64,000 nucleotides of DNA from Effrenium voratum (taxonomy: Eukaryota; Sar; Dinophyceae; Suessiales; Symbiodiniaceae). A program made the translations under genes and the position numbers. The stretch lies in NCBI GenBank assembly GCA_963377175.1, contig CAUJNA010001002.1, positions 313,883 through 377,882 of the forward strand, read 5' to 3'. The notes below the pieces were generated by a model. The model was not told where the DNA came from, made no database searches, and saw only the letters and a program-made list of their open reading frames with translations. The stretch's first letter is position 1. Every line of letters begins with the position of its first letter. Of this stretch, positions 9,677 through 63,688 are shown piece by piece.

Positions 9677-9749
9677 GTCCTGGTTCTCCCGCTTGGGCGA
9701 CGCCGTCGGCTCGGTGATCCTCGGGATCATCTTGCTGCCCTTCTCTCTA
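9677..9749 (+). CDS. TMEM43-like exon 1 (first recognised; membrane segment 1)
   Basis: Reads SWFSRLGDAVGSVILG followed by IILLPFSL. This matches in length and pattern the juxtamembrane and first membrane segment of TMEM43 (human PGFLERL...GGMFVG). Proposed acceptor is TGTGAG before 9677 and donor GT at 9750. The frame is also open upstream to about 9600 (a Lys/Arg/Ser-rich stretch), so the exon may start earlier. No start codon was identified. A family D foldback starts 56 nt after the donor. Confidence 0.68.
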
Positions 9750-9805
9750 GTCCGGGACCCCGGCCCCGAACTCCTCGGTCGCTGCCATGGGGTGTACGGT
9801 ACCCC

Positions 9806-9937
9806 CCACTCCAAATACCCACGCTTTTTTTCAGGGTATTTTTTGGGAAAAGCCGATCGGTTTTCCAGGGTAAATACCTCCTTTTTTAGTAGAGGGTCGA
9901 CATCATACCCTGAAAAAAGTGGGTATTGGGTGTAGGG
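9806..9937 (-). mobile_element. Family D foldback element
   Basis: Same orientation as the 5241 copy. Starts 56 nt after the exon 1 donor. Confidence 0.88.
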
Positions 9938-10651
9938 GGTAGACTTAGGATACATTTTACATACCAGTGACTCAAAGTGAAGCAAACAATAAAATAGTTA
10001 TTCTATAACTGGGCCTGACTCTAATCGTGATTTGCAGAAATGAATGTAATTTGATTCACCGACTTGTTGGTTTTGAAGGGAATCGATTTCACTACTGGCC
10101 CGGGGACCCCGGGGATTTTCGACGTCGACGGGGTTTCCACCCCGTGTTTGTTTGTTTGTTTTTTGTAGGTGTCTGTTCATGTTTTGGTGGGCAAATAAGA
10201 GCAGTTTGTTGCAAGACCATACCAAGGGTGGCAAAGGTGTGCTTCAACTCGAAGGATTCGGGGAGTCCCAAGTGCCGATGTTTTTGTTTTTTTCCCCTAT
10301 AATAGCCCACTATATGGCTTGCATGGAAGTATTGGCCAGGGTTCGCCGCTGAGCCTTTCTGGGATGTCACCGGGAGTCGGGAGTGATCCAGGGCTTGCAT
10401 CTCTCGGACCCGAACTTTTGCCAAACCTACGCGGCGGTTTGGGGGTTCTGGTTTTGGGGCTGGGCTTAGGCTAAGCCCGCACACGCCCCAAGAACAAAAC
10501 CCAAGCCCCGAAAACCATAGTCTTCCTAAACGAGAAACACTAGACACAAACAAACCGCAAAAAAACACGAACACGGACAATACACCTGCACAAAACACCA
10601 ATCGACAGAAAACTTCAAGGTAGCCATACCAAGGGTTACCTACCATAGCTG

Positions 10652-10764
10652 AGAACCATTTGCTTAAGAATATTTTAATATTTTGTTTATTTTCTCCTGT
10701 TGGTTTTAAAATGAATCTATCACTACTGGACATATTTTTTCCAGGGGTCTTAACCAAATGGAAG
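10652..10764. mobile_element. Family F element
   Basis: Ends CCATTTGCTTAAGA and TCTTAACCAAATGG, core CTATCACTACTGGACAT. Confidence 0.82.
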
Positions 10765-11022
10765 CTGAGAACCAGCAAGTGAACCAAAAAGGCAATGAAT
10801 TTTAAGCGCTTGGAAATAGGGAAGTGATGGACGACTACATCGGGACTCAAGTCCGTCCACAATGTGGGGTTCCGGACATTTCGATTGAAAGTGCCACTTG
10901 CTTTCACCCAACCTCAGTTGTTCAAAGGGAATCGGTCTTCCTGAAATGACCCCTTTGTCCATTTTTAGTAGTGGTTCCAAAATAAAAGGTACTTCCAAGT
11001 CCGAAATGGGCAAGTGAGCAAC

Positions 11023-11120
11023 TCCTAGATAGCCAAGTTGCTGCTTTTTGTTCAGTCACTGTTTCGATCGGTTTTGGGCTAAAGTGGATGGAAAAAAGCG
11101 ATCGCAACTGGCGATCCAGG
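11023..11120. mobile_element. Family L foldback element
   Basis: CCTAGATAGCCAAGTTGC ... GCAACTGGCGATCCAGG with CGATCGGTTTTGGG core; second copy at 13,884. Confidence 0.78.
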
Positions 11121-11240
11121 CGTTTCCCTCCAATTCCGGTGCCACATATGTCTCCCGATTCGACTGGAGGAAGTCTTTCAGGCGTTTCTGGCGCCCTGTT
11201 TGGTCTCAATATTTTCCAAAAGATTCGGGGAGGCCCTTGT

Positions 11241-11364
11241 CTAGGTCTCCCAGTAATTAGTGCCCTTCTCTACCAACTTTTTTGGTTGGGAGGGTTCCCC
11301 TACTAAAATTGACTACAAAGAAAAGTTGGTACCCTTATTCTAACCTCGCTACTGGAGGACCTAG
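11241..11364. mobile_element. Family B element with 4-bp target duplication
   Basis: CTAGGTCTCCCAG ... CTGGAGGACCTAG; TTGT at 11237-11240 and 11365-11368. Confidence 0.9.
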
Positions 11365-11783
11365 TTGTGGTTTCCCTTCAACATCATTCAAAAGGTTTCC
11401 GTGAACAACGGCACACCAAAAAAAGTCTGGTGGTTGTTTGTTGGCCAATTGGAGAGGGCGGTTGGGCGGCCCAGCCAACTATGGTTCTGATTGTCTCACT
11501 CCCGGAGTTCCGTTTCGGAGTTTAATCACTTTGCGGGTTTGGACCATTCTAGTGGCAAGCACAAAGCGCCAGCCCACTCAAGCACGGGAGTCACGTGCCG
11601 ATTCTCCTCGAATTTTCATGTGGGCTGGGAAGGGGGGGGCCTTCTTAAGGCTCAAATTTTGGCTCCCTCCACCCCCCCTCCCCCCCCAGAGGCACATCAA
11701 GTTATGGGATTGAGTACCTTAATAAGCCTTGGGCTTCCCTCCCCTCCAAGCCCTTATGCAGCCCTTGACCCCCCCCAGCCTTT

Positions 11784-12179: not shown

Positions 12180-12255
12180 GTGCTCATGTGGCTGAACGAG
12201 CAGCGGAGCGCCCGCCAGGAGTGCATCCTGCAACTGGGCAAGAACGAGGCCGGCG
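12180..12255 (+). CDS. TMEM43-like exon 2 (NE-x-R motif)
   Basis: Reads VLMWLNEQRSARQECILQLG then KNEAGG. It continues membrane segment 1, so that the distance from the Gly of exon 1 to the Asn of NE is the same as in human TMEM43 (F-T-NEGRALK). Acceptor is TTCGAG before 12180. The donor is GT at 12256 or GC at 12253; both give phase 1, which exon 3 requires. The region from here to the RLVH motif is about six residues shorter than in human, so a micro-exon could be missing. Confidence 0.78.
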
Positions 12256-12758
12256 GTGTTTCGGTACAGCCAGTTCCTTTCGGCGGGCTCGGCGGTGCTT
12301 TGATCGGATGGAGTTCCAGACACCCAGTGGGCAAGTCCTTGAAGAAGAACTGGTTTTTGGGCGGCCTCTTCTTTTTCAGCTTCATGGGTGATGAAGAAAA
12401 ACTTGGTCTTTGGGCGGGGTCTTCTTTTTCATCCTTCCAATTGGTGATTTGGGTTGGTGGTTTGGTGGTGCAAATCGAGTGGTTTCCAACATCCACCCTC
12501 TACAAAAGCGCCAGGGGCCCAACTCCAAATCCAGATCCAAACCAGCGGGGTCCAAACTTGCCAAGCTGACGGGTGACTTGACTTTTAAACCGACGGATGC
12601 CGAGGTGTTTGGCCCTTGGAAGTCCAGGGGTCGTGTGTTTTTTTTTGCTTAGCCCTGGTTGGCCCCAACCCTGGTTGGCCCCAACCCTGGTTGGTTGGTT
12701 GGTTGGTTGGTTGGTCCGAAGTCCAGTTTACGTCCTCGCTGTTGCTAGCGAACATGGA

Positions 12759-13625: not shown

Positions 13626-13644
13626 CACTCAGAAACTGCGACTA

Positions 13645-14642: not shown

Positions 14643-14840
14643 GCAACTGGAAGCACTGGGCTTTGTTGATCAATACCATCTTGTGAAACTTCACTGTTCT
14701 TGTTTGGTTCGGCCTGCAAAAAGCAAAGTTCTTTGCTACCATACCAAGGGTTGTGCAGAAAACCCAGAGGTAACAGCGCCACTTTTGCCTAGCGGCTTGC
14801 CTGAAAGCACTGGGCTTTTTCTCCACAAAATCAATAGCTA

Positions 14841-14940
14841 CCTAGACTCTCCTTCTGACCCTTAAAAAAGGGTTGGTCATTGCCCAAAAGAAAGATTCGG
14901 GTCAAATGACCCCCTTTTTTCTAGGGGTCAGAAGGAGCTA
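14841..14940. mobile_element. Family A element
   Basis: CCTAGACTCTCCTTCTGACCC ... GGGTCAGAAGGAGCTAG. Confidence 0.82.
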
Positions 14941-19171: not shown

Positions 19172-19218
19172 GTGGTCGCTCGGTTGAGCCAGAGCCGAGG
19201 TTGGTGCACCTCAATGAT
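19172..19218 (+). CDS. TMEM43-like exon 3 (RLVH motif)
   Basis: Reads GRSVEPEPRLVHLND, matching human HSVAPENEGRLVHIIG. Acceptor ACAAAG; donor GC at 19219 (GAT|GCGGCG). It starts with two bases that complete a Gly codon from exon 2 and ends in phase 0. The open frame continues past the donor, but ending here makes the distance from RLVH to the VEVYQW of exon 5 exactly 37 residues, as in human TMEM43. Confidence 0.75.
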
Positions 19219-19495
19219 GCGGCGGCGGAGGGGAAAGAGCGCTCCTCGTCCGCCGAGTTTCAGCCAGCTACAGGCGTCCTTGCTTGGTGGCTCCCAGCGA
19301 ACCATCCGGTTCAACTTGGCGTTTTAGTTGTTTTTGGTTGGTTTAGTGGTTGGGTGTCCGAATTTAACCTACGAAAAGTTACACTCTCAGCAGGGGATCT
19401 GAAAACGGAAGCCCAGATTATGTTGACAGTTTCTGAGAAACTGAAATTGATTTCCCTTTAACCTGCCTTTTAGGGGGGGTGACTTTGACAATCAT

Positions 19496-20337: not shown

Positions 20338-20399
20338 TCGATCGGAGTCCGAGGCTTGGAGGACCGGCGCTTCGCCTTGAGCCTCTCCAGCGCCTTAAG
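20338..20399 (+). CDS. TMEM43-like exon 4
   Basis: Reads SIGVRGLEDRRFALSLSSAL plus two bases of an Arg codon. Corresponds to human LLSDPNYGVHLPAVK (D followed by an aromatic and hydrophobic alternation). Acceptor ATCGGAG; donor GC at 20400 (AAG|GCGGGT). With exon 5 it forms ALRLRSTVEVYQW, gapless against human AVKLRRHVEMYQW. The acceptor is a non-ideal AG|T, so the left edge is less certain. Confidence 0.74.
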
Positions 20400-22987: not shown

Positions 22988-23048
22988 ACTGCGCTCCACC
23001 GTGGAGGTGTACCAGTGGGAAGAGCAGAAGCACGAGGAGAAGAAGAAG
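22988..23048 (+). CDS. TMEM43-like exon 5 (VEVYQW motif)
   Basis: Reads LRSTVEVYQWEEQKHEEKKK. VE-x-YQW is the most diagnostic TMEM43 motif (human VEMYQWVE), followed as in the family by a charged linker. Acceptor CGCCAG. Donor is GA at 23049 (AAG|GACCGG), which is phase-compatible with exon 6; a GC at 23056 would not be. The GC-rich context extends about 65 nt upstream into the intron (repeated GCGAAGCCCCC-like words). Confidence 0.87.
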
Positions 23049-24446: not shown

Positions 24447-24507
24447 GACTCGGTGGGCGGAGGGGAGAGCGTGGTGACCACCTACAATTACAACAAGAAG
24501 TGGTGCA
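24447..24507 (+). CDS. TMEM43-like exon 6 (Y-x-YN-x2-W motif)
   Basis: Reads DSVGGGESVVTTYNYNKKWC. Matches human GQVKKETRYSYNTEW. Acceptor TTCGAG (same hexamer as before exon 2). Donor GC at 24508 (GCA|GCTTCT), ending phase 1. With exon 7 the spacing from this Trp to the NF motif is 10 residues, identical to human (WRSEIINSKNF against WCSYTIDSGNF). This strongly supports both boundaries. Confidence 0.88.
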
Positions 24508-25820: not shown

Positions 25821-25891
25821 GTTACACCATCGACTCGGGGAACTTCAAGCAGCCCTCCCACCGCAACACGTTGGCGGTGGAGAACCTCAAG
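25821..25891 (+). CDS. TMEM43-like exon 7 (NF...HRN motif)
   Basis: Reads YTIDSGNFKQPSHRNTLAV then ENLK. Matches human [22 protein letters not shown]. Acceptor CTTGAG; donor GC at 25892 (AAG|GCGCGC), ending phase 0. It is bracketed by a family A element ending 36 nt upstream and a family B element starting 88 nt downstream, so the exon lies in an island of about 195 bp between two transposable elements. Confidence 0.88.
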
Positions 25892-27035: not shown

Positions 27036-27077
27036 GTGGGCACCGAGGACTTGAACAACCCCGTGGTGAAGTACGGA
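27036..27077 (+). CDS. TMEM43-like exon 8 (14 codons)
   Basis: Reads VGTEDLNNPVVKYG. Joined to exon 9 it gives PVVKYGDFSMPTDLV, gapless against human PFVQIGRFFLSSGLI. Acceptor CTCCAG; donor GC at 27078 (GGA|GCGCCC); phase 0 at both ends. The open frame and GC-rich composition continue past the donor, so only the junction logic marks the end. Confidence 0.77.
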
Positions 27078-29679: not shown

Positions 29680-29748
29680 GACTTCAGCATGCCCACGGAC
29701 CTGGTGACGCAGCTCTGCCACTGGGAGAGCGCCAATGACCTGGTGAAG
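29680..29748 (+). CDS. TMEM43-like exon 9
   Basis: Reads DFSMPTDLVTQLCHW then ESANDLVK. Matches human RFFLSSGLIDKVDNF. Acceptor GTTAAG. The donor is GA at 29749 (AAG|GATCGC), giving phase 0 as exon 10 requires. Alternatives are GC at 29733 (too short) and GT at 29762 (wrong phase). A partial family A element begins 32 nt after the donor. Confidence 0.83.
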
Positions 29749-30816
29749 GATCGCTCGATGGGTTTGAATCCGTGGATGTGCCTAGACTCTCCATGACCCT
29801 TTAAAAATGGGGTCATTTACCCTCAAGAGAGGGTTGTTTTCGTTTTTCAACGCTCCTATTTAGGAGCCCCAAGAGGACCTTTTTTTGGAGGGTCTTGAAC
29901 CCCCTTTCCGGACTCTAAAACTGAAATAGTTCCAAGTGGCTCCTAGGGATGTGTGATGTGCCTAGACTCTCCTTGTGACCCTTCGAAAATGGTTGGTCAG
30001 ACTACCTACCCAAATGAAAGATTCGGGTCATGACCTACCATTTTTCAAGGGTCATAGAGAGTCTAGGTGGATTTGTTTTCTTGCGATCGGTGCGATAGGT
30101 AGGGAATGAGAAAAATGGAACGCCACCCCCAAAACCACACCAAACCACCCAATCCAAAGCACCAATCAGGCAAGCTCACACCTATAGTCGCTTGCCTGGA
30201 AGAACTGGGTGTGGCTTGCAACTGGGGGTAGGAGGTTCGTTCAAAGTGTCAATTTGAATTGGGAGATGAGACCAGAAGGCATTGCCAGACACAGATTTTG
30301 AACTGGAAAATCCCGGAGGGTTTGAAAACCCTCCGGGTGAATCTCTTTTAGGCTTCGCACCCCCCAAAAGGGCTTCCGTTTCCCCTGTACCGCAGAAAAG
30401 GGGGAAGCTCCTCCAACAAAAGACGACCTTTTATATTGCATGGTCTTGGGTAACCACCACCCTCTAAATCCCTGCCAAAACAAGTTAGGAAACCCCCATC
30501 GATCCATTTAACCAAAACTTACGGTTTTTAAAGGCTTCCCTTAGCTGCCTACAAAGGGAAACGGAATCACAGGTATGTGAACATCAGGTTAAGAAATCAT
30601 TGGATGCATAATGAGCTCATTCTGAACAGCAAGCGCGTTTTTTTTTTTTTTTTAACGTTGCAAAGAGCCTCCTTCTCGGAGAGAGAGGCATTTTGGTTGG
30701 ACCAGTTTTTTTCTGTTCTTTTTTGTGACGTCAGACCACGCGCTCGCTCGCCCGCTCGCGCGCATCTCCGCTCGCGCGTGTGAGCGCGTGTGAGCCTCGG
30801 TGAGGGCCCTGTGAAG
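29749..30816 (+). other. Intron 9 content
   Basis: About 1.1 kb. Contains a half copy of family A (29781-29822), a full family A element (29961-30067), a CCGGAGGG/CCCTCCGG palindrome near 30,310-30,340 and CGCTCGCGCG-rich sequence just before exon 10. No gene seen. Confidence 0.5.
29961..30067. mobile_element. Family A element
   Basis: CCTAGACTCTCCTTGTGACCC ... GGGTCATAGAGAGTCTAGG. Confidence 0.85.
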
Positions 30817-30851
30817 TTTGGGAGCTGCGAGTTCGAGCGCTCCGGGGCTTG
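30817..30851 (+). CDS. TMEM43-like exon 10 (35 nt)
   Basis: Reads FGSCEFERSGA plus two bases of a Trp codon. Joined to exon 11 it gives FERSGAWFYYPKQ, matching human IRRGDFFYHSEN. Donor GC at 30852 (TTG|GCACCT) is the only one that gives the phase needed. The acceptor (GTGAAG before 30817) is one of several possible; GGTGAG before 30805 would add GPVK. Confidence 0.66.
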
Positions 30852-33352: not shown

Positions 33353-33392
33353 GTTTTACTACCCCAAGCAGCGGCAACCTGAAGTCGGCGAC
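33353..33392 (+). CDS. TMEM43-like exon 11 (PEVGD motif)
   Basis: Reads (W)FYYPKQRQPEVGD, matching human FYHSENPKYPEVGD. Acceptor GCCCAG; one base completes the Trp codon from exon 10. Donor GC at 33393 (GAC|GCCCCT), phase 0. Joined to exon 12 it restores PEVGDVRVAF against human PEVGDLRVSF with no gap. Confidence 0.83.
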
Positions 33393-35735: not shown

Positions 35736-35783
35736 GTCCGTGTCGCCTTCGAGCACGTGCCCAACGGTGAGGTCACCATTATG
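35736..35783 (+). CDS. TMEM43-like exon 12
   Basis: Reads VRVAFEHVPNGEVTIM. Matches human LRVSFSYAG...VVTVI. Acceptor CGTCAG; donor GC at 35784 (ATG|GCACCA); phase 0 at both ends. A stop codon follows a few codons downstream in the same frame, so splicing is required. The exon lies between a family A element (ends 81 nt upstream) and a family B element (starts 34 nt downstream). Confidence 0.85.
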
Positions 35784-37339: not shown

Positions 37340-37543
37340 TGCAACACGGGCATTTAGAGGCTCATCAGTTGATGCCATGCATGTAGATTGTCCAGACTGC
37401 AGACATGTCCCTTCCGCAGCTGAAGGGCCCTTTTGCTTGTAGCCGAGCCAGACATTTGGCCACGACCCCCTAGTCAGCTGCACAGGCGGCTTGAGAAGAA
37501 ACAAGGCTTGGCGCCATTCGCTCCCCGCGCTACTCCCGCTGCA
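37340..37543 (+). repeat. 5' LTR (204 bp)
   Basis: Begins TGCAACACGGGC and ends CCCGCTGCA. Identical by eye to 45428-45631. Short for a copia LTR. No TATA-like motif is obvious. Confidence 0.95.
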
Positions 37544-37544
37544 T

Positions 37545-37560
37545 TGGTAGCGGAGCAGGA
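37545..37560 (+). other. Primer binding site, initiator-Met tRNA type
   Basis: TGGTAGCGGAGCAGGA starts one base after the 5' LTR. TGGTA(G/T)C-x-GAGC is the usual copia PBS, complementary to the 3' end of initiator methionine tRNA. Confidence 0.8.
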
Positions 37561-37762
37561 GGCAACGATTCAGTGCTTCCTGCAGAGCCCGATCAAGTGC
37601 ACCAAGAACGTTCAGGAACGTGTGCACAGCTACTTGATCGCCTTGAGCCTAAATCTCTAAGAGACTCTGATCTTTGACTGCGTCGAGCCCTTTGGAACGA
37701 CCCAGGAAAAGATCATCGCTCAGGACTTCAAGATTGGCACGTTCCCGGACGGCGAAGTAGTC

Positions 37763-40700: not shown

Positions 40701-42829
40701 AGTCAAAGTTGGGAGAAACCTCAGATGGACACGATGGACATCTTTCGGTACCTCTCCACGGAGGAGCAGACCAAGCTCATGGAAGTGGTCACCGAACGTC
40801 AGCAAGCAGTCGCGGACCAATTCTCCGAGGAGGAGGAGGAACTTCAAGAAGTAGCATGATCCACCCCCTGCCGGTCAGCGTCGGTGCGAAGGTCATGCAA
40901 ATGGTGATCGGCGTGCAAGCCCTCATGACCACCGAGCTCCTCAACCTCAACTATGGCGACCGTGATGTGTTGTGGGAATTCGCATGTGCCCCACAAAGCT
41001 GGCTCTCTCAAGCGGTGCAGGACCACGGCATGGATGCCCAACGCATCAACCTCTATAACGGCTTCGACCTCTACAAGGAGGAAACCTGGGTCCGTCTTCG
41101 GCAACTTCGTCGTGCACGTAAACCTCGAAAACTGTGGTTTTCACTTCCCTGTACGAAGTGGTGCCGATGGACCAGTCTTAACTACTCCACACCCGAGGGC
41201 AAGGAGAAGCTCGAGAAGGACCGCCGTCGCGAACGGAAAATGCTCCGGTTTGCGAGGGACTTCATCCTGGAGTCCGTCGATGAGATTCGCGACATCGACA
41301 TCTACTGGGAGTGGCCCCATCCTTGCTACGGGTGGGAACAACGACCTCTTCAAGATCTTTCAGCGGAACTTGGAGGTCGAGATATCGAGTGGCTCCACTG
41401 TAGAATCGATGGTTGCGCCTACGGCATGAAGGACCACCTCGAGGAAAACTTCCTGGCAAAGAAATGGTCAATTCGCACCACCGATTGCGACTTCCACCGC
41501 CACTTTCACGCCAAGGTATGCCCCAAGAACCACCAGCACACCTACATCCAAGGAATCGAAACCTCAAGGTCAGCCTACTATCCCTGGCGGATGGTTTTGG
41601 CAATAGCCAGATGCTGGCGCGATCAGCTCCTACCACCTCGCTTCCATCGCTGGGCTCACTCCAAGAATGAGAACCATGGTGCTCACTTGGCACTGGAACT
41701 TGCAGCTCAAGAAGATGGTGATCCTCATGCTCTACCAGCACACCCACCATCCGATCCTGGCCAAGCTCCAGCAAGACCCGAACCTCATGCACCTCCACCT
41801 GATGAGCCACAACCAGATCCTCCAGCAAATCCACACCCTCCACCGGATGCACCCAGTCCTGAAGAAGTGCAACGGTGGGAAGCCAAGCTAGCGCACTTCC
41901 ACAAGGCTGCTGGACACCCTACAAACTCCAACCTGGTTCGTCTCCTTCAAGAAGCCGGACATCCACGATGGCGCATCGACAAGGCCAAGGAGTTCAAATG
42001 CAGTGCATGTGAGGCACTTCGGCCTGGCGGACTCAGTAGTGGACAAGTCCCTCCAGCGGCAACCTATCCTCTATACCAAGCTTGGCAGGCAGTCGGTCTG
42101 GATGTCAGCGGAGTACCTCGCAAGGTCAAGTTTGCCCTGTTCATCGACCTGGCCACCAAGCTGCGAGTAGTCTGCCCGCTCATGCAGTACAACTTCCTCG
42201 AGATGAAAGCGGAGAATGCCGAGATGCTCATCAAGGCCTTCTCCGAACGTTGGCTCTCCGACAAACCTCGTCCTGAGGTGCTGATCCCTGATTGCGGCAA
42301 AACCATGACGGCCAAGTCCATGCACGACTTCTGCAACTCTGTCGGTGTTCAACTAGCCTTTCCCCCAGAGAAGGAAAGCTGGGCACATGGCATTGTTGAA
42401 GCCGCAATCCAAGATGTCAAGATGACGGCCACAGCCATCCAGACGTCCAGTCCAGAGCAGAACCCGGAGATCACGCTCTACTTGGCTGCGGCAGCTCTCA
42501 ACTCCACCGAGTATACACGCGGTTTCAGCTCCTTCCAGTGGTGCTACGGCAAGGCCTACAACATCACGGAGGAGGACATACGCACCTTCGAACAGCTTCC
42601 TCAAGATCAACGGCACCGTGAATTCGAGCAGCTCGTGCAAGCTCGTCAAAAGGCGGAGGATATTGCCCGGTCCACACGTGCAAAGCGCGTTCTCTCCAAG
42701 CTGGTCAACACAACAGTGCGACAACCTCTACGCACCTTCCAACCCATGGACCTGGTCAAGGTTTGGAGAAGAGTCTGGCCTGCTGAACTTCATCGAGCAA
42801 GCCCCATTGGATCGGCCCTGGGCGTGTGA
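37763..42829 (+). CDS. Gag-protease-methyltransferase-like-integrase open frame of the copia element
   Basis: A 1,688-codon open frame after a 219-nt leader. Seen in order: a helical Gag region (residues 10-120 and on), long acidic linkers, a CX2CX3HX4C zinc knuckle (C421 to C433) in a Gly/Lys/Ser-rich stretch, a retroviral-type aspartic protease with active site LDCGA (D541) instead of the usual D[ST]GA, a segment 780-1030 that looks out of frame (see next entry), a methyltransferase-like region (1032-1330), an HHCC zinc finger (H1380, C1413, C1416) and an integrase catalytic core with D1447, D1510 and E1546 (D35E spacing). It ends in the integrase C-terminal region, just where RT homology begins in another frame. 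Confidence 0.9.
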   Translation: MDNEFRSDHLPSLDGQARSWRRYYKEVAWCAQSTPAHKRRYLAAKLIGRLRGPARLLAMSWSRADFDHADGVLQLLQRLAASPLVRKSLPNAAAIMQQYFSFKRNPGEGIGNFLVRETLGYEEFVEALLRLHEESSGVDQSRKDFGLPKNMDSGWDEWGESWSDWDYQPVTEENPPSEGEQAPDAPGDVSGISGTAAPGSAPSQEPSPDAQVGSPPAQRVTDTTGTPGTITELSMADSFIMGVLRGWRLLQAASLSPEDKRDILSTTRNSLEYEAISQALQMLWDEQLLGNRQRPPQHLNYHEADLNYQDAWDQDWEPWDPSDESWFDNAWAQSGWEEDPESWSSPAVPELPDEALSAEEQDKLRDAMQAERAAEQMAMDAQRTWTEAQRATQLVRKDRGFGASFNNSGKGKSSGGKGSGCFLCGGRHYARDCPDRRHPSKGKGKHAFMLADPYNEHFFTGKSGKKGKGWKGRSKSAAWAEHDLSWISKGKGKSDQRPTVNAYVQDMYGINGLEMHEGPHNPLELSSVSPGKVAPHQGMLDCGATASAGPEASVQRLIEAVLRQDKSATVTVDPNQRPYFRYGSGRWGRAQYRVTLQSDLSGHPRVFHVYALPNPPEFFEQWFTTDMLVPILVGMSHAGSDGVGMVVDLATGFAIDALLPDPRPYQLDKNHKGHFMVDLVHFLTGGNQNTSADDHPVVKVTSRTPTSSTGKPWDMHTLFPCEMYDMNVKVGTCSQLDPLVNTTTPHGPSRVCELYAWKLMREHRTVPAWLISALDSSESMGSVLSPNATPAPPSHVQKADQPFGHHSDHGGAARVPHREEEDLQGPHALRSGKEHGNGPSGHPRQEHLAMLRPPPTGELGEQPPRALDPLSGMRSQASVRPETRIPEHVYNGAQPRDGQPGHGGTTTASTWPHAHCPDLQGHVGQVGGRGEAPGDDPQGQGSASLLHEQDKSSSSQAHQPQGDIKDCRRVHFSVPVHGEQSKLGETSDGHDGHLSVPLHGGADQAHGSGHRTSASSRGPILRGGGGTSRSSMIHPLPVSVGAKVMQMVIGVQALMTTELLNLNYGDRDVLWEFACAPQSWLSQAVQDHGMDAQRINLYNGFDLYKEETWVRLRQLRRARKPRKLWFSLPCTKWCRWTSLNYSTPEGKEKLEKDRRRERKMLRFARDFILESVDEIRDIDIYWEWPHPCYGWEQRPLQDLSAELGGRDIEWLHCRIDGCAYGMKDHLEENFLAKKWSIRTTDCDFHRHFHAKVCPKNHQHTYIQGIETSRSAYYPWRMVLAIARCWRDQLLPPRFHRWAHSKNENHGAHLALELAAQEDGDPHALPAHPPSDPGQAPARPEPHAPPPDEPQPDPPANPHPPPDAPSPEEVQRWEAKLAHFHKAAGHPTNSNLVRLLQEAGHPRWRIDKAKEFKCSACEALRPGGLSSGQVPPAATYPLYQAWQAVGLDVSGVPRKVKFALFIDLATKLRVVCPLMQYNFLEMKAENAEMLIKAFSERWLSDKPRPEVLIPDCGKTMTAKSMHDFCNSVGVQLAFPPEKESWAHGIVEAAIQDVKMTATAIQTSSPEQNPEITLYLAAAALNSTEYTRGFSSFQWCYGKAYNITEEDIRTFEQLPQDQRHREFEQLVQARQKAEDIARSTRAKRVLSKLVNTTVRQPLRTFQPMDLVKVWRRVWPAELHRASPIGSALGV
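40146..40859 (+). CDS. Overlapping +1-frame segment inside the Gag-integrase region
   Basis: Between about 40,110 and 40,860 the protein-like reading is in the +1 frame: ATG at 40146, with a CDLRLQYVPR-type CX2C patch preceded by HGRWIHC, then an acidic coiled-coil-like tail ending QFSEEEEELQEVA. The main frame over the same stretch is a Gly/His/Pro/Gln-rich sequence typical of an out-of-frame read. The segment ends at TGA 40857-40859, which overlaps an in-frame ATG (40856) of the main frame as ATGA. Either two compensating indels, frameshifting, or a separate small ORF with stop-restart coupling. Confidence 0.6.
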   Translation: MSKKLTNPLDTTPTTAELPEYLTAKKKTSKAPMPFDPERSMEMDPRDIRAKNTWPCFDRHQPGNWASNPHGRWIHCQVCDLRLQYVPRQGSPSMSTMVLNHVMVNRAMVELQQLLPGRMPTAQICKAMLDKLVAEEKLLVMIHKVKDQPVSSTNKTSPAPPKRTNHKGTSKTAAGYTSPCPSMASSQSWEKPQMDTMDIFRYLSTEEQTKLMEVVTERQQAVADQFSEEEEELQEVA

Positions 42830-45474
42830 TCTTCCATGAGGTCCTACCTCATCAGCAAGCAGATGATGACCGTCGTCATGTGGTCTGGGTCCTCATTGGC
42901 ACTCAGCTGATGCGATGCTCCCCACATAGTGTGCGATTGGTCACCGACAAGGAGCGCCTGGTCTTCGAGATTGGTGGTGCAGAGGATCCCTCTCGATGGC
43001 GATCCCTCGCTGATGTACTACCAAAACGTGAGTTCGTGGACATGATCGACCAAGCTCCCAAATCGGATGAGCTTGAACTTCCTGACTTACCACCCGAACC
43101 CGACAAATCCACGATCATCAAGCCCACTCATCGCATGAAGACCAAGGGTGCCTTGAACATCCGACCTGTACCGATGCCCAAGGCCAAGGTCGCTCGCACT
43201 GGAGAACCTGAGCCTTCATCAAGTGCACCGAGCTCTACATCCACAGCAATGCCCACACATTCGGCGCCACCCGCCGGAGAGGTCAATGAATATGAAGAAG
43301 ATCCTGATCTTCGTCGGGAACTCAAGAAGGCCCGCATCACTCCAGATGATGCTCTATGGCTTCAATCCTTGCAGGAGGAGACCATCGACCTTCACACAGC
43401 TCTCATGGACACCGAGCAAGTGATGGTGATGGAGTTCAACCTGGAGTTTACCAGTAACCGCGAGAAGAAGAACTTCATTCGCGATCCTCACCTGTTCCTC
43501 GTCAAGCAGATGCGGAGCAGCGAAGTCAACCTCAAGAAGCTCACACCACAACTCCGCGAGTTGTTCCACCGTGCCAAGGCCAAGGAAGTCAGCAGCTTCC
43601 TCAAGAATGAAGCAGTTCGCAAGTGCCTGGATAACAAGGAGATCCAGGAGGCCTACAACTCTGGGCGCATCATGCGTGCTCGCTGGGTCCTCACGTGGAA
43701 ACTGGTTCCAGATGAGGAACATCCAGAAGCCCTCCGAGATGCCATGTCCAACGCGCAGACCATGGTCACACCTGATGGTCGCAAGAAAGCAAAGGCCCGC
43801 ATCGTGGTGCTCGGATTTGAACACCCCGATCTTCTGGACCCTTCCTTCCGCACCTCGAGTCCGGTTCAAACCAACCTCGGGAGGAACCTCCTGTACCTCA
43901 TGACTTGCCAGCATGGTTGGGAACTTGAAGGTCTTGACCTTGCCACGGCATTCTTGCAGACCCAGAAGACCGAGGAGGATAAGAAACTCTGGACCTACGG
44001 AACTGAAGAGCTTCGAGAAGCCCTAGGCGTCGGTTCCGAAGGCATCATTCGCATCCTGAAGAACGTGTACGGCTCCACCACTGCACCCCGTGGACTTTGG
44101 CAGGACCTCCATGCAACCTTCAAACGTCTTGGTGGCATCTCCCTGACTTCGGAGAGATGCATGTGGGTATGGCTTTCGCAACATCAGAAAGACCAACAAG
44201 GCCGACCTCTCGTCATTGGTGCCATGGGTGGTCATGTAGATGATTTCCACCGGACCGGAGACAAGGCCAACCCTGAATGGAATGAGGTCTGTCAGCAGGT
44301 TGACCGTGCCTACGTTTGGGGTACCATCAAGCGTGGAGAATATCGCCACGCTGGCACCGACCTCGTCATTGGCAAGGATGAAAACGGTGACACCACGATC
44401 ACCGTCGACCAACAGTACTACATCGAGTCCCTCCAGGACGTGAACATCCCTCCCGAACGCCTTCGTCAAGTTGACGCCGTTCTGGATTCCACCGAAGTTG
44501 GACACTGCCGAGCTACCCTGGGAGCCCTGCAGTGGGTTGCGGTACAAACTCAACCACAGCTCAGTGCGAGATGCAATCTCCTGCTCACCGAGGTGACCGT
44601 GACTCCTTCGACCTCCGTTGCAAGAGAAATTCAACAAATGGTGTGTGAGGTCCGCAGGAATCCCGTCAAGCTGGAATTCTTCAAGCTGCCTGGAGTCCAA
44701 TCTTGGACCGACGTCGTGTTCATCACCATGGGCGACCAAGCTCACGCCAACCGACCTCAAGGAGATAGCACTGGCGGCATGATCACCGTTGCTTCCGGCC
44801 CACGAGCAATCACTGGCGCACCCACCAAGATGTGTCTTTTGACCTGGCGATGCTGGAAACTCAAACGCAAGGCCATCAGCTCGAATGACGCTGAGGTACA
44901 AGCCATGGTCGAATCCGAGGACAACAACTTTCGGATGCGACTTCTTTGGTGCGAACTTCATGGCCAGTCCATCCACCAGCACCGCGACAACGACAAGGTC
45001 TCTGCCGGCGAAGAGGTGGTCAAGCTTGTCAAGGGCGTGGTCACTACAGACTCCCGAGGCGGATACGATGCTGTGACTCGCCATGAGTCTCCGATGCTTG
45101 GGCTCTCCAACATGAGAGCAGCGCTTCAAGCCTTTCAAGTGAGAGAAAGTTTGGAACGCACCCACACCGAGCTTCGCTGGACTGCCTCGGACTATGACTT
45201 GGGCGATGCCTTGACCAAGAAGGCACCATCATGCAGAGCCGGGTTACTGCAGTTTCTGAAGACCTCTGTGTGGTCTATAGCCTTCGACCCCAGCTTCCAG
45301 AGCGCTCGCAAGAATGCCAAGGCGGGCAAGTCAGCGCTGCAGACCCTGCAGAATCCCTCGTCTACCTCAACGGCCCGATCCCGAAGTAAGCCAATCACGT
45401 CATCAACTGAGAATGATTTTGTGCCCATGCAACACGGGCATTTAGAGGCTCATCAGTTGATGCCATGCATGTAG
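42787..45474 (+). CDS. Reverse transcriptase-RNase H open frame of the copia element
   Basis: Open from 42787 with no ATG before 42910; 882 codons if counted from GTG 42826. It begins with KPHWIGPGRV, the conserved C-terminal part of copia integrase, so it must be reached by a -1 shift from the preceding frame. RT motifs, counted from 42826: LDLATAFL (D371), the VYGSTTAPRGLW motif and GHVDDF (D472, D473; the usual YVDD is HVDD). RNase H: WTD (D629), SNDAEV (E690), TDSRGG (D742) and the family ending DLGDALTKK. The catalytic residues appear intact. The C-terminus is encoded in the 3' LTR. Confidence 0.9.
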   Translation, partial: TSSSKPHWIGPGRVIFHEVLPHQQADDDRRHVVWVLIGTQLMRCSPHSVRLVTDKERLVFEIGGAEDPSRWRSLADVLPKREFVDMIDQAPKSDELELPDLPPEPDKSTIIKPTHRMKTKGALNIRPVPMPKAKVARTGEPEPSSSAPSSTSTAMPTHSAPPAGEVNEYEEDPDLRRELKKARITPDDALWLQSLQEETIDLHTALMDTEQVMVMEFNLEFTSNREKKNFIRDPHLFLVKQMRSSEVNLKKLTPQLRELFHRAKAKEVSSFLKNEAVRKCLDNKEIQEAYNSGRIMRARWVLTWKLVPDEEHPEALRDAMSNAQTMVTPDGRKKAKARIVVLGFEHPDLLDPSFRTSSPVQTNLGRNLLYLMTCQHGWELEGLDLATAFLQTQKTEEDKKLWTYGTEELREALGVGSEGIIRILKNVYGSTTAPRGLWQDLHATFKRLGGISLTSERCMWVWLSQHQKDQQGRPLVIGAMGGHVDDFHRTGDKANPEWNEVCQQVDRAYVWGTIKRGEYRHAGTDLVIGKDENGDTTITVDQQYYIESLQDVNIPPERLRQVDAVLDSTEVGHCRATLGALQWVAVQTQPQLSARCNLLLTEVTVTPSTSVAREIQQMVCEVRRNPVKLEFFKLPGVQSWTDVVFITMGDQAHANRPQGDSTGGMITVASGPRAITGAPTKMCLLTWRCWKLKRKAISSNDAEVQAMVESEDNNFRMRLLWCELHGQSIHQHRDNDKVSAGEEVVKLVKGVVTTDSRGGYDAVTRHESPMLGLSNMRAALQAFQVRESLERTHTELRWTASDYDLGDALTKKAPSCRAGLLQFLKTSVWSIAFDPSFQSARKNAKAGKSALQTLQNPSSTSTARSRSKPITSSTENDFVPMQHGHLEAHQLMPCM

Positions 45475-45631
45475 ATTGTCCAGACTGCAGACATGTCCCT
45501 TCCGCAGCTGAAGGGCCCTTTTGCTTGTAGCCGAGCCAGACATTTGGCCACGACCCCCTAGTCAGCTGCACAGGCGGCTTGAGAAGAAACAAGGCTTGGC
45601 GCCATTCGCTCCCCGCGCTACTCCCGCTGCA
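45428..45631 (+). repeat. 3' LTR (204 bp)
   Basis: Same 204 bases as the 5' LTR. The RT open frame runs into it and stops at 45472-45474, so the last 15 codons are encoded by the LTR. No clear polypurine tract is seen just upstream (only GAGAATGA about 20 nt before). Confidence 0.95.
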
Positions 45632-46076: not shown

Positions 46077-46145
46077 GCCAGCTTCGTGCCGTACCGCCTG
46101 GTGAGCCGGGGCTTCTGCGGCATCTCCACGGGGAAACTCCAGGCG
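46077..46145 (+). CDS. TMEM43-like exon 13
   Basis: Reads ASFVPYRLVSRGFCGISTGK then LQA. Matches human [22 protein letters not shown]. Acceptor TCTGAG; donor GT at 46146 (GCG|GTGGGG). Joined to exon 14, ISTGKLQAESLL aligns gapless with human [12 protein letters not shown]. The VTIM-ASFVPY join with exon 12 is five residues shorter than in human, so a micro-exon could be missing. Confidence 0.8.
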
Positions 46146-48692: not shown

Positions 48693-48761
48693 GAGTCTTT
48701 GCTGGCCCAGGGCAGAAAGGACCCCAGCCAGATCTATGAGGAGGACCCGGCCCAGAAAGCG
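48693..48761 (+). CDS. TMEM43-like exon 14
   Basis: Reads ESLLAQGRKDPSQIYEED then PAQKA. The first residues continue the human AEEVFHREL region. The rest is longer than in human. Acceptor CGTAG. The right edge is uncertain: GT at 48762 (phase 0, leads to tentative exon 15), or GA at 48731 or 48767 (phase 2, leads directly to exon 16). Confidence 0.68.
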
Positions 48762-49301: not shown

Positions 49302-49339
49302 CGTCCTTTGTGACCCCTCGAAGCTCGTAGGAGTCATGC

Positions 49340-49455
49340 ACCAGCGGACCGCTGAAGTACCTTTGCTGCTGCTTCTTGGGGCTCAAGAAGTCGAGTCGAT
49401 TGGACGGGTCTGGGGGCGTCTGGGGACGGCTTTGCTTGAATGCGGCAAAGCGCAA
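49340..49455. other. Exon-like open patch, strand ambiguous
   Basis: Both strands are open. Plus reads MHQRTAEVPLLLLLGAQEV; minus reads NRLDFLSPKKQQQRYFSG. Lies between families H and I in intron 14. Not assigned. Confidence 0.25.
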
Positions 49456-49862: not shown

Positions 49863-51340
49863 TCTAGAGACATTTGGTGCAAGTTGACAAAGTCACCTCT
49901 CAACTTGCTGGTGCTCGGTAGGGAATGACCCAGGTGTTGGGAATGAACCGGTCTTGGGGATTCCCTTAAAGGAAACCACGGGATTGTACGGGTCGTTCCC
50001 TCATGCCCTGCTGAGAACCAGCGAGTTTACTTGGATGGTCTGGAAGGAATTGCCAAGTGGTTAGTAGCCCCAGTTGCCAAGGTTGAAAGGGGGGGGGTAG
50101 CGGGCCAAGCTACGTCCCAGAGCATCTACTTGATTGCAACGGGGTATTTTTTCCAGCAACTTAGGCGTTTTTGTTTTCCTTTTTATTTCCATGTGTTTTT
50201 CCCTTTTTTCATATTTTCCGGATAGGTTCACAGCTTTGGCCGTTTGCAGAGCAGGTCACGTGTGAGGGCAAGCCTTAGGCCTGCAAAACGGGAACCGCGG
50301 ATCGGTCAGGCGTGGTAGACTTGGGGCATTGGGCCCTATCCTGACCTGGACCAGTGACCTTTTTCCGCCGTCCACCCGTAGCCCCCTTGCTTTGTTTCCC
50401 ACAAGCGAAAAAGGGCACGCGCAACCAGCTCGGGACAACTGAGCAGATTTTGGACCACATTCCAAGGTTCACTAGACAAAGAAACCAGGATCAATCGTAT
50501 GGCTATGAATTTGAATGAGGAATACGGAAGACTGCCCCAAATGCTTGGTGGACACGTTTGTTCCTACAGGACGTCCACCAGAGGGTCTATTAATCAAATT
50601 TAGGCCTATATCACTTTACTGGTCTTTTGTTGGACCGAATCGCCCCAACAGCACCTGCTGGAAACACATCGCGTTTCCATTGAACTCACACTAGGTGGTC
50701 GACCTTTTGCTCGTTTGGGGGAAAGGAGCAACCCATGTCATTTGTGTTGGGGCCAACATGAGGGGCATTTCCAGGTATGGTGTTTGGAGGGTGGATGCTT
50801 ACATACCACGATATGCTTTTAAGGCAGTTTACACCCCCAAGTGGCATACAACCTCCATACCATATCTCCAAAGACCCTACTTAGATGGTGTGGTAGAGGT
50901 GTACGAATTTATCTCACTCCCAAACAATCTAAGTACCTAGAGTTTCCTTCTGACCCAAATCAAACATGGGTTGCCACGCCCTTTTTGTTTGAGGCAACCA
51001 ACCATTTTTTGATTCGCGTCAGACGCCACGACCCGAATCAACCCATGGGTTGCCATGGCGCCTTCTTTTTTTTTCTGGGGAGGGTCAGCTGCAGAGACTC
51101 CCGATGCTTTTCGGGCCCTCAAAGTGGGTTGTCAAGGGCCCCGTTTTTGAGGGGAAAAGGCCCCGGCATGTGGAGGGGTCATGAGCCATGAGCCTTAGGG
51201 CGCCCGAAAAAAAATGGGCTTCCGAGAGGTTGCAACCTCATCAACCTGGCATTCTCGCAGATCCCGCCTCAGATCTTTGCAGCTGCCCACGCATTTGGGC
51301 CTGTCTTTGTTGGAGGTGGGCCCCCCATTGTTTTGTTTTG

Positions 51341-54026: not shown

Positions 54027-54067
54027 GCGGCCTGGCACGGGCACCTGGATCAGCGGGAGTGCTTCCA
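54027..54067 (+). CDS. Tentative TMEM43-like exon 15
   Basis: Reads AAWHGHLDQRECF plus two bases of a Gln codon. It lies in a GC-rich island like those around the other exons, has AG before and GA after, and its phases (0 in, 2 out) fit between exons 14 and 16. It has no counterpart in human TMEM43, and the family does not need it here. The opposite strand of this island is also open. Treat as a guess. Confidence 0.3.
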
Positions 54068-54540
54068 GAGCCTCGAGACGCCCCCTGGCGGCTTCGCGCT
54101 TGCGGAGTCGGTTGTACTTTTTTTTGTTTTGCATTCCCCTAGGTAGCCTCAAGCCCAGGATTTGTTTTTTGGCAGGGTTCACCTCTTTGTGTATTTCTAG
54201 GTAGGCTTATACCCAGGGATGGTTTGTGGCTGGCGCCCGCGAAAAGTTTCGAGTCGAGCGCGGGGGTAACGCAATGGTTGGGGGGGGGTGGGGGTGGGGG
54301 GGAGGGGTACGGGTAATTTTGGGCAGGGTTCTCTTTGTGTATTTCTAGGTAGTCTTAAACCCAGGGATGGTTTGTGGCTCCAGGGAGATCCTGGGTTTGA
54401 GTCACTGTGGGAAGTCAAACATACAGGCATGATTTTGAGGGGAGCTAAGGAGCTGGGACGTATCCAGCGAAAGGTTGTGTCACCACAATGGTTGAGGGGG
54501 GGGGGGTTGGGAGGGAGGGGGGGGTTGATATGCAAACAAC

Positions 54541-55418: not shown

Positions 55419-55465
55419 TCGTATGTATGCATGCATGTACATAAGTATGTATGTATGCATGTATG

Positions 55466-55496
<31 letters not shown>

Positions 55497-55936
55497 TGTA
55501 AGCAAGTAAGTAAGTAAGTAAGTACCTAAGTAAGTATGTATGTACGTAATGTATTTATGTATGTATGTATGTATGTAATGTAATGTATGTATGTATGTAA
55601 TGTATGTATGTATGTAATGTATGTATGTATGTATGGATGGATGTACGTATGTATGTATGTATGTAATGTAATGTAATGTAATGTAATGTAATGTAATGTA
55701 ATGTAATGTAATGTAATGTAATGTAATGTAATGTAATGTAATGTAATGTAATGTAATGTAATGTAATGTAATGTAATGTAATGTAATGTAATGTAATGTA
55801 ATGTAATGTAATGTAATGTAATGTAATGTAATGTAATGTAATGTAATGTATGTATGTATGTATGTATGTATGTATGTATGTATGTATGTATGTATGTATG
55901 TATGTATGTATGTATGTATGTATGTATGTATGTATG

Positions 55937-55967
<31 letters not shown>

Positions 55968-56084
55968 TGTATTATGTATGTACGTATGTATGTATGTATG
56001 TATGTATGTATGTATGTATGTATGTATGTATGTATGTATGTATGTATGTATGTATGTATGTATGTATGTATGTATGTATGTATG

Positions 56085-56137
<53 letters not shown>

Positions 56138-56773
56138 TGTAATGTAATGTAATGTAATGTAATGTAATGTAATGTAATGTAATGTAATGTAATGTAATGT
56201 AATGTAATGTAATGTAATGTAATGTAATGTATGTATGTATGTATGTATGTATGTATGTATGTATGTATGTATGTATGTATGTATGTATGTATGTATGTAT
56301 GTATGTATGTATGTATGTATGTATGTATGTATGTATGTATGTATGTATGTATGTATGTATGTATGTATGTATGTATGTATGTATGTATGTATGTATGTAT
56401 GTATGTATGTATGTATGTATGTATGTATGTATGTATGTATGTATGTATGTATGTATGTATGTATGTATGTATGTATGTATGTATGTATGTATGTATGTAT
56501 GTATGTATGTATGTATGTATGTATGTATGTATGTATGTATGTATGTATGTATGTATGTATGTATGTATGTATGTATGTATGTATGTATGTATGTATGTAT
56601 GTATGTATGTATGTATGTATGTATGTATGTATGTATGTATGTATGTATGTATGTATGTATGTATGTATGTATGTATGTATGTATGTATGTATGTATGTAT
56701 GTATGTATGTATGTATGTATGTATGTATGTATGTATGTATGTATGTATGTATGTATGTATGTATGTATGTATG

Positions 56774-56804
<31 letters not shown>

Positions 56805-57440
56805 TGTAATGTATGTATGTATGTATGTAATGTAATGTAATGTAATGTATGTATGTAATGTGTATGTAATGTAATGTAATGTAATGTAATGTAATGTAAT
56901 GTAATGTAATGTAATGTAATGTAATGTAATGTAATGTAATGTAATGTAATGTAATGTAATGTAATGTAATGTAATGTAATGTATGTAATGTAATGTATGT
57001 ATGTATGTATGTATGTATGTATGTATGTATGTATGTATGTATGTATGTATGTATGTATGTATGTATGTATGTATGTATGTATGTATGTATGTATGTATGT
57101 ATGTATGTATGTATGTATGTATGTATGTATGTATGTATGTATGTATGTATGTATGTATGTATGTATGTATGTATGTATGTATGTATGTATGTATGTATGT
57201 ATGTATGTATGTATGTATGTATGTATGTATGTATGTATGTATGTATGTATGTATGTATGTATGTATGTATGTATGTATGTATGTATGTGTATGTATGTAT
57301 GTATGTATGTATGTATGTATGTATGTATGTATGTATGTATGTATGTATGTATGTATGTATGTATGTATGTATGTATGTATGTATGTATGTATGTATGTAT
57401 GTATGTATGTATGTATGTATGTATGTATGTATGTATGTAT
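55419..57440. repeat. 2-kb ATGT / AATGT mosaic array
   Basis: Long blocks of perfect ATGT repeat alternate with blocks of the 5-bp AATGT repeat (about 55,659-55,850; 56,132-56,230; 56,862-56,980), with rare single variants. The long Tyr-Ile-His-Thr and Met-Tyr-Val-Cys open frames on both strands arise only because the unit has no stop in some frames. Confidence 0.97.
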
Positions 57441-61530: not shown

Positions 61531-61841
61531 TTTTCTTGGATTTTGTTACCCACCATTTGTTGGTGATGCTAGGGATGTTGGTCGGACATGCGGGGGATGT
61601 TGAAAACGATGCTGGGGATGTTGACGAGCTAGTGAAATGCGTCAATTTCGCGAGAAAATGTAAAATACGACACTTTGCTGGCCCGGACGAAAAACGGAAA
61701 AAAATCAAAAAAAAAAACGAAAAAAAAAACCCAAAATAAATCCGCACCCATTCTTTACATGGCTCTGGGTCAACCATTTTAATGCCGGGTTTTGATTGTG
61801 ACTCACCTGCGTTTGTCAAATCGATTTTTGTTTTTCTTCAG

Positions 61842-61929
61842 GAGCGGGATGCTGATGAAGTGGGGCGTTCGCGGGTTGAGCTGGCTGCTGCTCTATGCGA
61901 GCTGCTACATGCTCTTCCAGCCCTTGCTG
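61842..61929 (+). CDS. TMEM43-like exon 16 (membrane segment 2)
   Basis: Reads SGMLMKWGVRGLSWLLLYAS then CYMLFQPLL. Matches human [26 protein letters not shown]: a Lys-x-Trp-Gly-x-Arg turn followed by a membrane helix. Acceptor CTTCAG, preceded by a T-rich tract; donor GT at 61930. Starts in phase 2, ends in phase 0. Confidence 0.87.
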
Positions 61930-62197
61930 GTTCCTCGTGATTCAAGTGGAACAAATCCAGGGTTGTGGGATCAAGGTGTTTTTTCCCCCACTTCTGTGAT
62001 ACAAGGGGAGTCCCCTTTTACATGGGGGGGTTAGTCTTTGGGAGGCCCTTTCGGCAGGGGTCTGTGCACTTCCATGTTAGCTGGTGGAGAAGAAATGGCC
62101 GTGGGTCAAATCCAAAGGGATCCATTTTAGAACCTATTTTTGTGGTTGGAGTACGGGGTTTTGACCCATGGCCAAATCAAAATCGGCCTGTCGCCAT

Positions 62198-62281
62198 GCC
62201 CCCCAAAAAATGGTTGGTCATTACCCAAAAGAAAGGGGTAAAATGGGCCCATTTTTTGCAGGGTGAGAGAGAGACTCCAGG
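62198..62281. mobile_element. Family A element, left end lost
   Basis: AATGGTTGGTCATTACCCAAAAG ... GAGAGAGACTCCAGG, then TA. Confidence 0.72.
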
Positions 62282-62407
62282 TAGTTACAAATGGCTGTGG
62301 GTCTAGACCAATGGGATCCATTTTAGAACCTATTTTAGTGGGGATTGGGATTTTCACTGGGGGTACGGGGTTTTGCAGGGCCAAATCGGAATCGGCGACC
62401 TGTCGCC

Positions 62408-62489
62408 ATGACCCCTTAAAAATGGTTGGTCAATTACCCAAAAGAAAGGGGTTAAATGGGCCCAATTCACAGGGTCACAGAGACTCCAG
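62408..62489. mobile_element. Family A element, left end lost
   Basis: Same structure as the copy 200 bp upstream; the two are part of a local duplication. Confidence 0.7.
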
Positions 62490-63589
62490 TTTGGATTGGG
62501 ATGTTCACTGGGGGTACGGGGTTTTGACCCATGGCCAAATCGGATTCCGCGAGTTCCGCTTGCGTTTCAGAATACGTTTCGCGCATGTTGGCTTTAAAGG
62601 GATGGAACCAGTTGGTAGGTGGTATATCCCATATTTATAGGGCGTCATCCATCCCAACTGGTGCGAAGTGGATTTTGTCCATCCGGGGGGAAATCAACCA
62701 AGCAAAGAATTGATGACCCTTTTTCGCCCTGGCAACTGGAGGGTCTCAGTCTGGCTTGCGGTGATCAAAGTAGGGATCCATTTGACCCTACCAAGCCCAA
62801 GAAACGAGCCCTCTGCTCCAACCCTTCCGAGGCCTCAAAGAATGGGGTTCAAGGGCCAACATGGACTTGAACCCATAGTTCTCCTTTTGCGGGCAATGAG
62901 CCACCCCTGAGTTTAAGTCTACCCAGAAATTCTCAAAAAGTGGAGCCCTGACTGGGATTGTTTGAAGACACATAGACCATCCAACCGGTGGTTTCCTTTA
63001 AGGGAATCCCTAGTTCCATTGCCAAACCCCGGACTCGGTCATTCCCTAGTGAAATGGGGTACCCTGAGAGTATGAACCAAATGAAGAGGAAGAAGGCAAC
63101 TGGAATGAAAATTGGCGCTGCCGCTCCCACCTCTCCCAAATTGGTGGTAGCCGAGCCCGGTGGTTTGAATCGACCAGACCGTCGGGGGAGCCATAATCAA
63201 AACCTGGATAAGTGAAGGGTAGTAACCCAGAGGGTCCAAGTACCTCATGAGGATGGCTTTTGGGGGGTAAAAGGGATCTACAGTAAGTACCTCCTTAGAA
63301 GGTATCAAGGGGCCCTCTGGGTAAAGCCAGAATCAGTTGCGGCCGCCTTTGTAGTTCAAAGCATTGGTTCCCTAGGAGCCCAAGACCTCATTATTTGAGG
63401 TCGGAGAGGGGGTCACAGGCCAACTCATATTTAGGGTCCAAGGGGCTCCTTGGGTTTGGGTACCACGTGTTTTTCTAGCCATCGGTTTTGCTGGTGAATC
63501 AGGTGGCAGCCGCTACCTCTCCCATTTTTTTGTTTTAAAGCAAGCGAGCCCCGTGGCTTTTGGGCACCGGCTCGACCGTCGATGGCCAG

Positions 63590-63688
63590 GTGGTCTTGGA
63601 CATCATCCCCTTTTTAGGGCCCTATTTGAGCTCCGGGACGAGCTTCGTGCTGTGCCTGGTCATCTTCATCATCACGCTGCTGCTGCTC
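63590..63688 (+). CDS. TMEM43-like exon 17 (membrane segments 3-4, right edge uncertain)
   Basis: Reads VVLDIIPFLGPYLSSGTSF then VLCLVIFIITLLLL. Matches human YTLVDWFPVFRDLVNIG followed by AFCVATSLTLLTVA. Acceptor GGCCAG, phase 0. Possible donors are GA at 63689, GC at 63695 and GT at 63698. The family continues with an aromatic-Tyr-Arg-Pro motif and a last hydrophobic segment, which are not in the remaining 300 bases, so the gene runs off the window. Confidence 0.8.

Follow-up and report, generated by a model that had tools for sequence, protein, structure and literature searches.

Mini-exons of a TMEM43-family gene

The window analysed here, a 64-kb stretch of Effrenium voratum DNA (contig CAUJNA010001002.1; all positions are those of the window), carries an ordered series of short coding segments which, when joined, give a protein of the TMEM43 family. 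The joined model has 21 exons, all on the + strand, in order and with compatible phases, and its 1227 nt translate into 409 amino acids with 0 stops. An earlier note on this DNA had described such a series of ordered, phase-compatible and stop-free segments on one strand, and had counted at least 16 exons between 9677 and 63688; the series is confirmed, and 20 of the 21 exons fall within these limits, with one probable exon (6781-6830) upstream of them. The coding share of the 56,908 bases from 6781 to approximately 63688 is 2.16% in the final exon model, in line with the 2% or so given in that note. Exon lengths are 30-99 nt (median 53) and the 20 introns span 587-9407 nt (median about 2.4 kb).

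The gene probably starts at 6781 or further upstream. Exon 1 (ASLVQSGQVPLTETTH, GC donor) is a probable exon and the least certain one, placed at 6781-6830 with each of the relatives P0028 and P0029 singly and at 6802-6830 in profile alignments. Exon 2 (9677-9749, SWFSRLGDAVGSVILGIILLPFSL, GT donor) encodes the N-terminal membrane helix and is also found with a profile of bacterial-type proteins. The 3' end of exon 3 (12180-12252, beginning VLMWLNEQRSARQECILQLGKNEA) is uncertain, since it varies between 12248 and 12286 among runs and 12252 was picked by hand, while exon 4 (19172-19240, ending in RLVHLNDAAAEGKE, GC donor) begins at 19200 in the runs restricted to GT, GC and GA donors and at 19172 in a donor-neutral run. 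Exon 5 (20354-20399, LEDRRFALSLSSAL, GC donor) was placed by splice-aware alignment, and exon 6 (22988-23048, LRSTVEVYQWEEQKHEEKKK) ends at a GA donor at 23049 or at a GC donor at 23058, the latter adding three residues.

From here on the exons have a counterpart in the public E. voratum protein P0001, and both the profile alignments and the P0001 match locate exon 7 (24447-24507, DSVGGGESVVTTYNYNKKWC, GC donor at 24508, phase 1), exon 8 (25821-25891, YTIDSGNFKQPSHRNTLAVENLK, GC donor), exon 9 (27036-27077, VGTEDLNNPVVKYG, GC donor), exon 10 (29680-29748, DFSMPTDLVTQLCHWESANDLVK, GA donor), exon 11 (30805-30851, GPVKFGSCEFERSGA, GC donor), exon 12 (33353-33392, FYYPKQRQPEVGD, GC donor) and exon 13 (35736-35783, VRVAFEHVPNGEVTIM, GC donor). 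Exon 14 (36640-36669, ALQCEDKARI, GC donor) has alternative ends at 36660, 36664 and 36671 in some runs. The same two lines of evidence place exon 15 (46077-46142, ASFVPYRLVSRGFCGISTGKLQ, GC donor), near the end of which an insertion relative to other TMEM43 proteins starts, exon 16 (48693-48743, ESLLAQGRKDPSQIYEE, GA donor) inside this insertion, exon 17 (49331-49370, ESCTSGPLKYLCC, GC donor) with its cysteine cluster, exon 18 (51229-51278, CNLINLAFSQIPPQIF, GC donor), in which the insertion stops near PPQ, exon 19 (54027-54079, AAWHGHLDQRECFQSLE, GC donor) and exon 20 (61842-61929, SGMLMKWGVRGLSWLLLYASCYMLFQPLL, GT donor), which encodes a membrane helix. Exon 21 (63590-63688, beginning VVLDIIPFLGPYLSSGTSFVLCLVIFIITLLL) has a 3' end that was set by hand and is not fixed exactly. 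Tiny segments at 14420, 18042, 27715, 37559, 39192 and 41715, and others, from the alignments with P0030 and P0031, were rejected as gap-bridging filler.

Proteins of the TMEM43 family consist of an N-terminal membrane helix, a large beta-rich domain and a group of C-terminal membrane helices, and exons 2, 20 and 21 align with the helix regions of relatives. The 409-residue model matches the Pfam family TMEM43 (PF07787) over profile positions 1-239 of 250 with 136.5 bits (E=1.3e-39), well beyond the curated cut-off of 23.3 bits, and earlier joins of 224 and 300 residues had given E values of 1.1e-21 and 2e-37. This search is the test that the earlier note had itself proposed for its TMEM43 reading, and its outcome, together with the presence of 15 of the exons in a public E. 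voratum protein, supports that reading. The PVVKYG-DF and PEVGD-VRV joins appear in the splice-aware alignments as had been described, but the exact residue spacing of human TMEM43 that had been claimed is found in one case out of two: the distance from W to NF is 9 in either protein, whereas RLVH to YQW is 37 here, as in P0028, and 35 in the human sequence used. An AlphaFold model of the relative P0028 has a mean predicted local distance difference test score (pLDDT) of 78.7 and a predicted template modelling score (pTM) of 0.70, and its order is that of a long N-terminal helix, a beta-rich domain and C-terminal helices. No solved structure was found by sequence at E values up to 1, or by fold, where the best Foldseek E was 0.088, and an Rfam scan at gathering thresholds gave 0 matches.

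Alignment evidence and the public protein

The exons were aligned with a custom splice-aware protein-to-genome aligner which permits GT, GC and GA as donors and AG as acceptor. With 19 relatives in the profile (P0001 weighted 0, intron cost 14) the window scored 778 as compared with 55-76 in ten dinucleotide shuffles, and a profile of seven relatives reached 735.5 on the + strand, as against 65.2 on the - strand. A further profile, built without these relatives from 14 presumably bacterial proteins, scored 231 on the + strand, 55 on the - strand and 49-65 in ten shuffles, and 12 of the 15 segments found with it fall on exons of the model. Named motifs were also sought in six frames, the peptide patterns being those of the earlier note and known ones of the family.

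Exons of merely 30-99 nt in a sequence where short open reading frames (ORFs) are plentiful might suggest that the matches arose by chance, short open segments having been assembled by a reader seeking a known protein. In tblastn the human TMEM43 sequence, which served as a lead, gave weak matches throughout, the best (E 0.29) being at a site outside the exons, and this would fit such an assembly. The shuffle maxima of 76 and 65, however, stand far below the 778 and 231 scored on the window, and 15 of the exons reproduce a public E. voratum protein; both results are at odds with such an assembly, and we count this explanation as refuted.

P0001, an E. voratum protein product of 309 residues from a contig of 704,367 bp, was the top hit of the draft join among proteins, and tblastn divides it over 15 exons of the window, which lie between 24438 and 63691. 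The model is identical to it in 285 of 285 residues from exon 7 onwards; the exceptions, both in P0001, are a stretch of 16 additional residues that follows KKWCS and a short tail beyond LLLL that differs. P0001 moreover lacks the six exons that the model has upstream. Since it shares the 15 exons and lacks these six, public data already contain the gene in part, whereas the earlier note had expected that an ORF-based annotation would leave the window gene-free apart from the retrotransposon. The start of P0001 is an ATG at 24438, 9 nt ahead of exon 7, and P0001 appears to run past the GC donor at 24508 as far as 24555, to a GT donor 48 nt downstream of it.

If the deposited model were right, translation would begin at 24438 and the upstream segments would lie outside the gene. 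That P0001 is a deposited protein speaks for this, as does our own reading that the GT donor which closes its 16 extra residues is phase-compatible with the next exon. However, the N-terminal helix and the LVH..YQW core, which are found in P0028, P0029, P0031, P0032, P0033 and four bacterial-type rows, are encoded by the upstream exons, while the extra stretch is filled in a single one of 20 aligned rows, that of P0001 itself, and the ATG lies just 9 nt ahead of exon 7. We therefore consider the deposited start and the exclusion of the upstream segments extremely improbable. The start falls in sequence that the 21-exon model reads as intron, and the public model appears incomplete. The case illustrates shortfalls of dinoflagellate gene models, namely a start placed too late, an extra stretch that lacks support and missing exons.

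Splice sites, introns and mobile elements

All 21 acceptors are AG, as the aligner requires, and the first exon base is G in 20 of 21 cases; the 19-relative run rewarded AG followed by G, and the seven-relative run picked nearly identical sites without this bonus. With GT, GC and GA permitted, the 20 junctions have 15 GC, 3 GA and 2 GT donors, and when any dinucleotide was allowed at equal cost GC was still taken at 11 of 19 junctions, with GT and GA at 2 each. As GC makes up 0.11 of the dinucleotides within 12 nt of exon ends, the preference for GC donors exceeds what base composition would give. The junctions show the splice pattern of Symbiodiniaceae, with AG then G at the acceptor and GT, GC or GA at the donor.

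In PMC11114475, which describes Iso-Seq and RNA-seq for the species, the average gene of E. voratum measures 20 kb and has 18 introns, which on average make up 92% of it, so that the intron number found here is usual for the species and the gene length nearly three times the mean. GC-AG and GA-AG introns are put at 25-74% in Symbiodiniaceae in PMC11453091, and according to a table in PMC5177918 the prevailing donors of Symbiodinium microadriaticum are GC, GT and GA. The figure of 18 GC or GA donors out of 20, which comes from a single gene and a restricted donor set, lies above the published genome-wide range. The architecture is typical of the group and not of a new kind, long introns and such donors being already published traits.

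Taken together, we are highly confident that the locus holds an intact-looking nuclear gene of E. voratum, or of a dinoflagellate very close to it, that encodes a membrane protein of the TMEM43 family and is divided into about 21 mini-exons by long cis-spliced introns with mostly GC donors and with acceptors of AG followed by G. Several points weigh against this. The exon model was drawn from genome and protein comparison. The true first exon or exons were not located in the 64-kb window by splice-aware alignment with relatives, and the window showed no match to the final 40 or so residues that the relatives have, the 3' end of the gene and the last helices of its protein being beyond it. The join of exons 3 and 4 is unsure (12248-12286 to 19172 or 19200) and slightly shorter than in relatives, 4 of the 19 junctions in the donor-neutral run take another dinucleotide and exon 1 is lost there, and three of the 15 segments found with the bacterial-type profile (29786, 30103 and 46880) lie outside the model exons. 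A further such point is the location of the product, which would follow that of the animal proteins.

Ordinary cis-splicing of the long introns would join the approximately 21 mini-exons into one message, and transcription and splicing as drawn are predicted from the sequence. In human TMEM43 the beta-rich domain is luminal, and by analogy the same domain here may face the lumen. The product would probably reside in the membrane of the endoplasmic reticulum (ER) or nuclear envelope as in animals, the ER and the inner nuclear membrane being the location of human LUMA according to PMC7889174. The insertion with the cysteine cluster would be an addition to the beta-rich domain, immediately ahead of the C-terminal membrane helices, and could plausibly touch the membrane. 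No paper pairing TMEM43 with a dinoflagellate was found in one search of an open-licence library.

The largest intron (9.4 kb, after exon 14) contains a long terminal repeat (LTR) retrotransposon on the + strand at 37340-45631, outside the coding sequence, with two identical 204-bp LTRs (37340-37543 and 45428-45631) and a 5-bp target duplication, GTTTC; without the element the intron would be about 1.1 kb. It carries two long overlapping ORFs of 1688 and 882 amino acids, with integrase and RVT_2 matches below the Pfam cut-offs, and the identity of its LTRs suggests a recent insertion. Such an insertion, together with the 17,822 to 78,762 pseudogenes per E. voratum isolate that PMC11114475 reports, would suit a relic of a dead TMEM43 gene whose segments are no longer spliced into a working message. 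Against this stand 409 codons without a stop, AG at 21 of 21 acceptors and 44% identity to P0028 over 99% of the 300-residue join, and the element itself lies in an intron and has hit no exon. A pseudogene is in our judgement very unlikely, and we retain the intact gene as the reading of the locus.

In every one of the 20 introns, 4-43% of the sequence is taken up by repeats occurring within the window, and no exon bases lie inside such repeats. None of the 20 introns has a within-window repeat reaching both splice sites, as introner-type introns would, although single-copy elements would escape this comparison; in the nearest case the repeat ends lie 51 and 22 nt from the splice sites of one intron. 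An introner origin of the introns consequently finds no support in the comparison of repeat ends with splice sites. The intron after exon 19 holds a 2-kb tetranucleotide array (55421-57440; 483 GTAT copies, 96% matches), which yields long spurious ORFs. Dispersed repeat families of about 60-140 bp occur in both orientations (e.g. 2963-3096, 11258-11366, 14838-14937 and 7490-7578), and a 140-bp repeat is present in three copies about 94-95% identical (4939-5079, 5232-5376 and 9801-9943), which nearby ORFs translate as GYDVDPLLKKEVFTLENRSAF.

The cysteine-cluster insertion and the relatives

Between PYRLVSRG and IFAAWHGH the model has 55 extra residues, which are also present in five presumed-dinoflagellate rows and absent from 14 bacterial-type rows, one Prevotella row, one sponge row and one human row. 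Among the 20 presumed-dinoflagellate rows, four carry dinoflagellate names, P0001 (E. voratum) and P0030, P0049 and P0050 (Symbiodinium), and the other 16 were classed by similarity alone, a basis that applies to every statement on dinoflagellates made here. All 20 fill at least 20 of 30 insertion columns, and 19 of them have the cysteine-rich pattern, which P0060 fails. A cysteine run occurs in five of 96 other fetched proteins (P0035, P0059 and P0063-P0065), of which P0059 is named Symbiodinium. This protein (Symbiodinium sp. CCMP2592) has TMEM43 joined to the urease-type domains PF00449 and PF01979, perhaps as a fused gene model.

Most of the insertion is carried by the exons starting at 48693, 49331 and 51229 (51, 40 and 50 nt, 47 codons together), which have phase-0 introns on either side; its left edge lies in exon 15 and its right edge two residues before exon 18 ends. 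Annotation error had been considered for the exons at 49331, 51229 and 54027, their stretch being absent in bacteria, and was ruled out by relatives that carry the stretch. In the P0028 model the insertion forms three short helices (340-350, 354-361 and 369-381) with block pLDDT values of 69-91. Being hydrophobic and cysteine-rich, it might make contact with the membrane or take part in metal or disulphide chemistry.

It is tempting to see here a dinoflagellate subfamily of TMEM43, in which a hydrophobic module of about 55 residues with a cysteine cluster (LCCCCN) is inserted before the C-terminal helices, with a three-exon block of 47 codons as an exon-shuffled module would have. We give this slightly less than an even chance, down from an even one, because just four of the 20 rows are named, all of them Symbiodiniaceae, and because the left edge lies in exon 15. 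An insertion common to the dinoflagellate rows would offer a handle on a nuclear-envelope protein of animals in cells with a highly unusual nucleus, and the locus as a whole indicates that knowledge of a protein family can be enough to find, in raw sequence, a gene of which 2% is coding.

In the tree, twelve presumed-dinoflagellate rows form one clade (100/99), which the long-branched P0115 adjoins (88/87). Constraining eight dinoflagellate rows and two animal rows to a single clade costs 1.38 log-likelihood units (approximately unbiased test, p-AU 0.383); such a clade is not rejected, and the tree is silent on a vertical as opposed to an acquired origin.

Apart from P0001, the proteins most like the model, with TMEM43 and the cysteine-cluster insertion alike, are P0028, P0029, P0030 and P0049 (the last filed as Tmem43, partial, of Symbiodinium necroappetens), and identity to the 300-residue join is 44% for P0028, 43% for P0029 and 44% for P0030. 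P0030 is a TMEM43 protein of Symbiodinium sp. KB8 filed under the name ATG18A, and looks misannotated. P0028 and P0029 differ from the model by an N-terminal leader, signal-like by eye, which was not located in the window. The likeness to TMEM43 that the earlier note proposed is borne out for the PF07787 core, though not for the insertion, which the human TMEM43 (LUMA) sequence used does not have. Bacterial TMEM43-family proteins (e.g. P0095 of Prevotella) match PF07787 across the core as the model does, and animal TMEM43, as in the sponge protein P0114 and human LUMA, has this core in common with it, but both the bacterial and the animal proteins are without the insertion that precedes the C-terminal helices here.

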